Shown: piece after piece, positions 30,888 through 33,705 of the stretch
Position numbering within the stretch: position 1 is the first letter of the stretch
Layout of the letters: every line of letters begins with the position of its first letter
Source of the DNA: Candidatus Aenigmatarchaeota archaeon
Lineage (GTDB): Archaea; Aenigmatarchaeota; Aenigmatarchaeia; GW2011-AR5; JAGGXF01
Assembly (NCBI GenBank): GCA_021163205.1
Contig: JAGGXF010000016.1
Location: 1-36,668, forward strand
Length of the DNA stretch: 36,668 nt
Reading direction: 5' to 3'
The notes under the pieces: generated by a model
The model's database searches: none
The model's input: the letters and a program-made list of their open reading frames with translations, nothing else
Told to the model about the DNA's origin: nothing
Position numbers and translations under genes: made by a program

Positions 30888-30961
30888 AGCTACACTACAC
30901 TCTGTGGCAAACTTTTAATAAATTATTGGACAATGACTTTAATTATACAAGGGATAATCCC

Positions 30962-31429
30962 ATGTATATTGATAAAACCATTGCGATACTCAAAAAAGCT
31001 TTAAAGTCATCCTGGTCAGATGAAACTGTTAATGAAAGGTTTGCTGGTTGCCCACCACCAGAGGGACAATGTGATGTAACTTCGTTAGTGGTGCAAGACT
31101 TTCTCGGTGGAAAAATCAAAAGATTGGATTTCTCCACTTATTTCTCAAAAGATGAGGTTCTGCATTATTTTAATGTGGTAAGCGATGGAACAAAAAATAA
31201 GGTTGTTGATCTAACTTTAAACCGTGGACCTCCTCTGGACGAGTCTTTTGGAAAAGAAATAGAAAGAAAATACATGTTTGACATCGGAACCATCAAAGAG
31301 AGGTATGAAATCCTTAGAGAAAATGTATATAACTTTTTTAAAAAAAAGAGATTGACTTTATGGGCATATTATTTTATTTGTGAAAAAACAGGGTACAACA
31401 AAGCTCTTGCACTTGATCTCTATCTCTAG
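30962..31429 (+). CDS. YunG-like protein with Cys-His(-Asp) arrangement
   Basis: 155 residues. It resembles Bacillus YunG as I remember it: LKSSWSDETVNERFAGCPPPEGQCDVTSLVVQDFLGGKIKRL, then HYFNVVSDGTKNKVVDLTLNRG. The Cys in GQC, the His in HYFN and the Asp in VDLT would form a papain-like active site, so a thiol hydrolase or an inactive relative is possible. ATG 30962 has a TATA-like box at about 30936-30945; TTG 30926 would add 12 residues. The family is mainly bacterial, so transfer is possible. Confidence 0.7.
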   Translation: MYIDKTIAILKKALKSSWSDETVNERFAGCPPPEGQCDVTSLVVQDFLGGKIKRLDFSTYFSKDEVLHYFNVVSDGTKNKVVDLTLNRGPPLDESFGKEIERKYMFDIGTIKERYEILRENVYNFFKKKRLTLWAYYFICEKTGYNKALALDLYL

Positions 31430-31452: not shown

Positions 31453-32145
31453 TTACTCTCTGGTTAATCCTTTTTTACGTTCCTTTTTACGCTTGTACTC
31501 GCTTTTTAATATCTTCTTGAAGCGCGCGACGAGTTCGCTGCCAATCCCATGTACCTCTTTCAGTTCCTCGTCTGAAGCGGTAAAGACCTTTTCCGGCGTT
31601 TTCAGTTTTTCGAGCAGTCGACGCGCGAGTGTCGTGGACACAGACGGCAATCCGGCTACCAAGAATTCTTGTGCCTCTTCTAGCGTTCTAAATTTTCTCT
31701 TAACACGTATGCTAACTTCCCTCTTCTTTACCAGTTGCTCTCGCTTGGCTATCTGATACACGAGCCCCGCGGTTTCTTCAACATCTTTTGTCCATAAAAT
31801 CGGAATCTGGTAGTCTATTGCTATAGAACCGAGAGCACCCCTCAGCGCGTTCTTGGTTATGCGTTCATTGAATTTCTCACCTTCTAAAATCAAGATTGGC
31901 CGCTGCACCTGACGCAACGCGACTAGCTGATTGAATAACCTTCCATCAAGAATGCTCTGGACAAAATCAGCGGCAGTCTTTCTTTCAACAAGAACGCGGT
32001 CAGACAATACGAAATCGCCCACAGGCAGCTGCCTCTCCTCAATGACGCAGTCATAGTTGGCCAGGATTTGTTTGACAAGTCGTTCTCTGCTATCAAGAAT
32101 TATTTTGACCCTTTTCTGCTCTTCTTTCCCATCTCTTTTAGGCAT
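31453..32145 (-). CDS. XPF/ERCC4-type nuclease with HhH domain (nuclease half of Hef)
   Basis: 230 residues. The ERCC4 nuclease core has LDSRE (Asp18), PVGDFVLSD (Asp44) and VERKTAADFVQSI (Glu54-Arg-Lys...Asp60), the catalytic set that cuts branched DNA. A tandem helix-hairpin-helix domain follows (LVAGLPSVSTTLARRLLEK, ELKEVHGIGSELVARFKK), with a basic C-terminus. In Euryarchaeota these domains are normally the C-terminal half of the single protein Hef. Here a separate gene with its own GGAGTGA site starts 30 bases after the helicase stop. Confidence 0.92.
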   Translation of the reverse strand: MPKRDGKEEQKRVKIILDSRERLVKQILANYDCVIEERQLPVGDFVLSDRVLVERKTAADFVQSILDGRLFNQLVALRQVQRPILILEGEKFNERITKNALRGALGSIAIDYQIPILWTKDVEETAGLVYQIAKREQLVKKREVSIRVKRKFRTLEEAQEFLVAGLPSVSTTLARRLLEKLKTPEKVFTASDEELKEVHGIGSELVARFKKILKSEYKRKKERKKGLTRE

Positions 32146-32175
32146 TTATTTCACTCCAAAACTTAAGCAAATCGT

Positions 32176-33705
32176 TTAACTAAAATCTTTCAGCGTCTTT
32201 TCCTTCATCGAATAGAGAATCTTTTTCATTTTCTTTTCCTTGTGATGCGCGGACCAGTAATACGCTTCATCGCGCGTGTTTTTGGTTATGAATATGTAGA
32301 TACGGCCCATTTGTTCTCGTCCAACTCTGCCTCGCCTTTGAACAGTTCGGATTGCCGAAGGCACGGGTTCATAAAAAACAGCTGTTGTTGCGCTGCCGAG
32401 ATGTAGCCCTTCTTCACCTATACTTGTGCAAACAAGGCAGTTATAGAACCCCATGTCATACTCGTTTATAAGTCTAACTTGTTCTTTCTGATCTAACCCG
32501 CGAGAACCAGCCTGACCTATCAGGGCAACGGGCTTGCATCCTTTGACTTTTTTCAACTCCGCAATTATCTTATCTACGGTATCTCTGAATTGCGTGAATA
32601 TTATCAGCCGCGCATTCTCGTTGCGCTCGAATTCTTTTTCCACGATTTCACGCAGCTTGACCATTTTTGGATGCTCTTCCCCCTCTTCAATGAGTTCTTT
32701 GAGCAACCGCGCCGCGCTCTGAAAGTTTCTGTTCTCGATTAGTCTCGTCGCTGCTTTCGTATTACCCTTAACACCCTCGTTAACAATCTTGTCCATATAT
32801 CTTTTCACGCTGTATAGGCACTGCGTTTCCAGTAGCATGATGGCGTGGTCCACCTTCACGATTTCAGCTATCAATGACATTGCGGCAAAGCTTGAGCCGC
32901 TTTTACTGCGTGCCAGCTTTTTTTGAAGTTCTATGAGCTGGGATTTGGTGATGCGCGAAGAACGTATAATACTCCACTTCATTAGCATTTTTAGCTTTTC
33001 GTCCTTTATCGATTCGAGATATTTTTTTATGCTTTGCATCGGCTTTGTGAGCTCAACCTCAACCCATTCCGTCTTTATGGTTTTGATGTAGGGCGTGACA
33101 TCTTCATCATCCTTTGTTCTCACCTCAACATTCTTTATAAAAAGCGCCTTTTTCACCTGCTCTATCCTGTAGCGGTGGCCACCGGGTGACGCCGTAAGCG
33201 CCAGTATAAGAGGCTTTTCAGATTGCTGCATATATTTTTTTGCAACATAAGTGTATGCATAGTTTTTGACAGCTCGATGCGCCTCATCTACGATAAGTAA
33301 TGAGTATTCTTTCAGGTTCAGGACGCCCTTCTTTAAGTCATTCCGTATTGTTTGAGGCGTTGATATGACAATATCAGCCTTTTTGTAGAGCTCGCCGCGC
33401 TCGGCAGGCTTTATTTTTCCGGTTATGACTTTTATTTCATCAGGACCTATCTTGAGGAAACGCTCAAAGCTTTTTTTATGTTGATTCACGAGTGGCTTGG
33501 TCGGTGCCATGAACATAATCTTCTTATGCATGTCCTGCTCCAATCGGTAGGCGGCAACAAGCGCAGCTAAGGGTGTTTTACCCATACCTGTTGGCAGAAC
33601 CACGAGCATGTTGCCATCAAGTGCGCGCTTGGCTATGGCTTCCTGATACGCGCGCTTTTCCATGGTTTTCGGGTTTATCCAGCGATGCTCCACATACTCG
33701 GTCAT
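32176..33705 (-). CDS. Hef/FANCM-type SF2 helicase (helicase half of Hef)
   Basis: 509 residues, a complete superfamily 2 helicase. Motif I LPTGMGKT (37-44), Ia APTKPLVNQ, Ib TPQTIRNDL, II VDEAH (DEAH 140-143), III TASPGG, a helical insert of the Hef/FANCM kind (about 225-370), IV IFTQFRDTV, V TSIGEEGLHLG, VI QRRGRVGR. It remodels stalled forks and branched DNA. ATG 33705 has CTATATAATTTTT (about 33728-33740) at leaderless distance; the longer frame upstream is not supported. No linker to the nuclease remains. Confidence 0.93.
   Translation of the reverse strand: MTEYVEHRWINPKTMEKRAYQEAIAKRALDGNMLVVLPTGMGKTPLAALVAAYRLEQDMHKKIMFMAPTKPLVNQHKKSFERFLKIGPDEIKVITGKIKPAERGELYKKADIVISTPQTIRNDLKKGVLNLKEYSLLIVDEAHRAVKNYAYTYVAKKYMQQSEKPLILALTASPGGHRYRIEQVKKALFIKNVEVRTKDDEDVTPYIKTIKTEWVEVELTKPMQSIKKYLESIKDEKLKMLMKWSIIRSSRITKSQLIELQKKLARSKSGSSFAAMSLIAEIVKVDHAIMLLETQCLYSVKRYMDKIVNEGVKGNTKAATRLIENRNFQSAARLLKELIEEGEEHPKMVKLREIVEKEFERNENARLIIFTQFRDTVDKIIAELKKVKGCKPVALIGQAGSRGLDQKEQVRLINEYDMGFYNCLVCTSIGEEGLHLGSATTAVFYEPVPSAIRTVQRRGRVGREQMGRIYIFITKNTRDEAYYWSAHHKEKKMKKILYSMKEKTLKDFS

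Follow-up and report, generated by a model that had tools for sequence, protein, structure and literature searches.

In the phylum Aenigmatarchaeota, the helicase and nuclease modules of the archaeal fork-processing protein Hef are normally encoded by two separate genes. This two-gene form is a real, well-conserved, phylum-wide variant of a known enzyme, not a peculiarity of the genome in which it was noticed, and the phylum-wide split is most likely the result of gene fission. The genes that led to this observation lie in the window, that is, the whole 36,668-nucleotide stretch of aenigmatarchaeal DNA analysed here (Table 1).

Table 1. Coordinates of the Hef-related features in the window
Feature	Position	Strand	Remarks
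Hef/XPF-type ERCC4 nuclease gene	31453..32145	-	230 aa, ATG start; Hef model positions 564-780
Nuclease active-site motif GDFVLSDRVLVERKTAAD (GDXnERKX3D)	31966..32019	-	D44, E54, R55, K56, D60 invariant
Nuclease helix-hairpin-helix (HhH) DNA-binding region	31507..31656	-	HHH_2 and HHH_5 matches, each below cut-off alone
Hef-type SF2 helicase gene	32176..33705	-	509 aa, ATG start; Hef model positions 2-508
Helicase Walker A, LPTGMGKT	33574..33597	-	G42, K43 invariant
Helicase DEAH box	33277..33288	-	D140, E141 invariant
Helicase motif VI, QRRGRVGR	32317..32340	-	Q456, R457, G459, R460 invariant
PIP-box-like helicase C-terminal tail, EKTLKDFS-stop	32179..32202	-	degenerate: E replaces Q
Intergenic spacer, 30 bases	32146..32175	-	follows the helicase stop codon; sequence feature
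Shine-Dalgarno-like GGAGTGA in the spacer	32151-32157	-	before the nuclease ATG; sequence feature
TATA-like TATATAA	33729..33735	-	24-30 bases before the helicase ATG; sequence only

The earlier note had described the two Hef modules in this region as adjacent genes in the Hef order, 30 bases apart, with a GGAGTGA and an ATG belonging to the nuclease gene itself, and each of these particulars holds exactly once the minus strand is followed and the gap is counted from the helicase stop codon. The NCBIfam Hef model NF010337 (781 positions) matches the helicase with an E value of 7e-182 (606 bits) and the nuclease with an E value of 1e-69 (235 bits); the model is divided between positions 508 and 564, which places the break inside the Hef linker. 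The helicase additionally matches the DEAD, Helicase_C and helical-bundle Pfam families, and its AlphaFold model (mean pLDDT 91.5) has the helicase domain of Pyrococcus furiosus Hef as the best Foldseek match (1wp9, E 8e-46). The nuclease, the sole ERCC4 protein found by profile search in its genome (811 kb, 42 contigs), matches PF02732 (E 1e-29), and Foldseek comparison of its AlphaFold model (mean pLDDT 90.8) returned among the first matches the XPF of Aeropyrum pernix (2bhn, E 2e-18) and also the nuclease of P. furiosus Hef (1j24, E 1e-14), the PDB matches being 2bhn/1j22; the HhH region was matched to 1x2i (rmsd 0.8). Residues K43, D140, E141, Q456, R457 and R460 are invariant in an alignment of 33 helicases, as are D18, D44, E54, R55, K56 and D60 in an alignment of 32 nucleases, and both active sites are, as judged from the sequences, intact. 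The nuclease ends in KKERKKGLTRE and lacks a C-terminal PIP box. The TATATAA upstream of the helicase gene is a possible promoter of a two-gene transcript. The gene on the opposite strand that converges with the nuclease gene (30926-31429, plus strand) encodes a YunG-family protein (PF24585, E 9e-18).

Searches of 156 genomes of Aenigmatarchaeota, a phylum of the DPANN archaea, with the ERCC4 and Hef models detected an ERCC4 nuclease in 137, nearly always as a short open frame, and in none of the 137 was it fused to the helicase, fusion being judged from the open reading frames because the open-frame lengths of the Hef search can cross stop codons when both matches share a frame. Only two long ERCC4 frames were found, one of 811 aa that carries an intein (G006) and one of 528 aa with a helicase located approximately 2.9 kb away (G123). 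Using the Hef model, both proteins were identified in 132 of the 156 genomes. The helicase gene is followed by the nuclease gene within less than 5 kb in 77 of these 132: in 58 genomes from 37 genera and 17 families, the helicase domain is followed by the nuclease domain at a distance of no more than 400 bases, so that directly adjacent pairs, for which the earlier note had proposed a search, are widespread, and 400-5000 bases separate the two in the other 19. The reverse order, with the nuclease first, is found in 9 genomes, all from one family (f30), and in the remainder the genes are dispersed or lie on different contigs. Where the pair shares a contig, the genes are co-directional in 90 of 96 cases and the helicase is upstream in 81; altogether, order and adjacency are maintained across 20 families. 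In families f28-f32 the two genes are dispersed, indicating that tight coupling is not obligatory. The peculiarity that the earlier note implied for the window genome thus has to be abandoned under the refuting condition that the note itself had set: two genes are routine throughout Aenigmatarchaeota, and other lineages are split as well.

Outside the phylum, we examined 236 other archaeal genomes, in which single open reading frames of about 680-930 aa containing both domains are the commonest state among those read. Several lineages nevertheless have two genes, either dispersed (families f35, f37, f45, f60, f65, f72, f80 and f106) or adjacent or near each other (f81, f117, f85 and f46), and because several of these lineages are found elsewhere in the trees, they look like independent events. 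No ERCC4 nuclease was detected in six near-complete genomes that have the helicase (G196, G327, G344, G309, G175 and G256), and the helicase tails read in four of these (G196, G327, G344 and G309) finish in motifs resembling the PCNA-binding PIP box. The other split lineages resemble Aenigmatarchaeota in having two separate genes and, in many cases, a helicase with a terminal PIP-like motif, but differ in that the genes are mostly dispersed. In f60 (L206, L208, L210, L212), the Hef-type helicases are about 700 aa long and bear an unrelated C-terminal extension of about 180 aa that has no Pfam match; a separate, active-looking nuclease gene is also present. In the independently split genome G343 (f117, L235), full PIP-like sequences are located both at the C-terminus of the helicase (QQSRITDY) and at the N-terminus of the nuclease (QSTLTKY).

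Such motifs appear to mark the junction between the two modules. Fused Hefs contain a PIP-box-like motif in the linker that follows the helicase domain (e.g., QKTLDGF, QTTLGSF, QLSLESY), and split helicases end in similar sequences (e.g., QRDLEEF, QSELDEF, KETLKDW), usually 0-3 residues from the C-terminus. The strict motif, defined as Q-x-x-[LIMV]-x-x-[FYW], with chance occurrence estimated from 1000 shuffles, was found in 38 of 60 fused linkers (1.3 expected), in 20 of 80 aenigmatarchaeal helicase tails (0.7 expected), with families f25 and f26 among those that have it, and in 11 of 24 tails of other split helicases (0.3 expected). A loose version of the motif is present in 61 of the 80 aenigmatarchaeal tails, compared with 8.0 expected, and is missing from 19. 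None of the 1000 shuffles equalled any of the observed strict or loose counts, which are not independent given the relatedness of the sequences and yet cover many families. The tail of the window helicase, EKTLKDFS, is a degenerate example without the PIP glutamine and without the second aromatic residue; in the AlphaFold model, its final block has a low pLDDT of 56 and residues 505-508 form a short helix. PCNA itself is encoded in the window genome, and FEN1 of Aenigmatarchaeota carries a canonical C-terminal PIP box in at least 26 of 30 cases. The choice between W and F in the helicase tail did not significantly match that in the FEN1 PIP box of the same genome (p 0.49, n=12). Binding of Hef to PCNA has been reported for Thermococcus kodakarensis, Pyrococcus abyssi and Thermoplasma acidophilum, and the Hef of Haloferax volcanii has been reported to carry a PIP box (PMC7776575). 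The tail of the split helicases resembles a tag for docking onto the replication clamp.

Many nucleases of the phylum have a terminal motif as well. The N-terminal sequence M-x(0-2)-Q-x-[IL]-[LIF]-K-P is conserved in many aenigmatarchaeal families (e.g., L113, L116, L131, L134, L140), and a looser N-terminal pattern, Q-x(1,2)-[ILVM], is found in 59 of 90 nucleases, compared with 21 by shuffling; neither the window nuclease nor most other lineages have the Q-x-[IL]-[LIF]-K-P motif. It is tempting to view this motif as a second docking site left by a duplication-type fission, in which case the helicase would have kept the linker PIP motif at its C-terminus, the sliding clamp would replace the covalent linker of Hef and one PCNA trimer would reunite the two halves, but we regard this full version as speculative and rather improbable.

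A less demanding scheme, which we consider reasonably likely, is that the pair constitutes a two-subunit Hef that arose by fission after the PCNA-box-like motif and acts at replication forks, with the clamp partly standing in for the linker. Under this scheme, the two genes would be co-transcribed into a single mRNA in most members of the phylum; the helicase would remodel branched DNA and forks that have stalled; and the nuclease, which like XPF and Hef probably dimerizes, would cut these structures, much as the fused chain of Euryarchaeota does. The fission would date from the base of Aenigmatarchaeota or earlier and would have occurred in the linker just behind the PIP-like motif, so that the helicase would end with a predicted clamp-docking tail, and the shared PCNA ring together with co-expression may substitute for the lost covalent connection, the subunits meeting at the fork. 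Conceivably, the two proteins are instead functionally uncoupled neighbors, namely a fork helicase of the FANCM/Mph1 type and a stand-alone XPF nuclease like that of Crenarchaea, as might be suggested by f28-f32 and further split lineages, where the genes are dispersed, by the genomes with a helicase but without a detected ERCC4 nuclease (such as G196, G327 and G344) and by the fact that stand-alone XPF functions in Crenarchaea. The predominance of co-directional, helicase-first pairs, with direct adjacency in 58 genomes of 37 genera, argues against this possibility, and we judge it to be considerably less probable than the two-subunit Hef.

Whether the split is a fission or the ancestral unfused state had been left undecided in the earlier note. 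In the helicase tree, Aenigmatarchaeota and two long-branched split DPANN-like sequences fall within a clade of 46 rows, 19 of them fused (SH-aLRT 97), and across the strongly supported branches of this tree the fused state changes at least five times; a second tree, of 77 rows and slower to compute, recovered a comparable clade with support of 85/90. This nesting of split helicases among fused DPANN Hefs favors fission, which we accept as the probable origin of the split. The alternative is that Aenigmatarchaeota retain the original adjacent genes and that other archaea fused them, in which case the C-terminal clamp tail of the helicase would have become the linker motif upon fusion, a transition that is easily pictured because PIP boxes are usually C-terminal, as in FEN1. 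This possibility was rejected neither by the nuclease tree nor by the outgroup test. The nuclease tree, which includes crenarchaeal XPF, is poorly resolved, with few supported branches, and a topology in which the fused forms comprise a clade apart from Aenigmatarchaeota and crenarchaeal XPF was retained in the AU test (p-AU 0.74). With chicken LGP2 as the outgroup, the helicase tree was rooted within fused Hefs of euryarchaeal type, albeit through a very long branch, and an ancestral-unfused tree was likewise retained (p-AU 0.64). Moreover, in prokaryotes generally, fusion is reported to be more common than fission (PMC11237513). Nevertheless, an ancestral unfused state would account for the nesting among fused DPANN Hefs only if fusion happened independently several times or if the root lies on Aenigmatarchaeota, and the state found most often in the sampled genomes of other archaea is the fused one, so that we consider this history unlikely. 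Hence, the helicase tree tips the balance toward fission, and the other two lines of evidence are compatible with both histories.

The remaining explanation, a fused Hef disrupted by a sequencing or assembly error, might be invoked because both window genes are in one frame, but it is virtually excluded, in agreement with the earlier note, by two in-frame TAA codons between the genes (32178-32176 and 32148-32146), such that one misread stop is insufficient to join them, by the Shine-Dalgarno-like site and ATG of the nuclease gene, by the recurrence of the split and by the apparent purifying selection on both genes. The identical two-gene layout is present in the assembly of a same-genus relative (G080/JAOZPR010000002.1), with protein identity of 86% for the helicase and 84% for the nuclease; the dN/dS values against this relative, 0.045 and 0.054 for the two genes, were obtained with saturated dS and suggest purifying selection. 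Furthermore, 76 further near pairs read at the DNA level all consist of two open reading frames; the frame of one gene relative to the other varies, and small overlaps are frequent.

Compared with euryarchaeal Hef (P. furiosus, T. kodakarensis, H. volcanii), the pair shares the helicase and ERCC4-HhH modules, their order and catalytic motifs, and the PIP-like motif after the helicase domain, but consists of two polypeptides without the linker. Crenarchaeal XPF (A. pernix, Sulfolobus) is likewise a stand-alone nuclease that lacks a helicase and combines ERCC4 and HhH domains in about 220-230 aa, comparable to the 230 aa of the window protein. However, the Hef model gives the window nuclease a higher score (235 bits) than the XPF model does (118 bits), and a helicase partner is located upstream. 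In addition, the C-terminal PIP box is a defining trait of crenarchaeal stand-alone XPF, whereas the strict form of this motif was found at the C-terminus of only one of 80 aenigmatarchaeal nucleases. FANCM, FANCM-FAAP24 and XPF-ERCC1 have homologous folds, and eukaryotes similarly separate an active fork helicase from an active nuclease; FANCM, however, retains a C-terminal ERCC4-type domain that the aenigmatarchaeal helicase lacks.

Hef has been described in a review as a Euryarchaeota-specific, single-chain protein (PMC7776575), and the presence of two genes across a whole DPANN phylum corrects this picture on both counts. An ERCC4-like helicase has been noted in Nanoarchaeota (PMC3655853), Nitrosocaldaceae have been listed with a helicase entry and a separate nuclease entry (PMC7819960), and Hef is not mentioned in the main text of the 2024 archaeal fusion/fission screen (PMC11237513). 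We found no description of the aenigmatarchaeal pair in the openly accessible main texts searched. Both window halves miss the curated cut-offs of NF010337 (610 bits for Hef) and NF040956 (XPF), and only 85 of the 156 Aenigmatarchaeota genomes attain the Hef cut-off, so that automatic annotation may under-report the repair pair. Because the curated models miss the separated halves, this finding bears on the extensive lack of DNA-repair enzymes reported for DPANN (PMC8407392). The split also provides a natural experiment on the purpose of the Hef linker.

Finally, we noticed two features of individual aenigmatarchaeal loci. In family f2 (L068-L080), in those cases in which a gene intervenes between the helicase and the nuclease, it often resembles, by eye, a NUDIX hydrolase. 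The intein of G006 (L092:334-2766, minus strand), with splicing and LAGLIDADG domains, interrupts a stand-alone XPF-type nuclease within the ERKX3D active-site motif.
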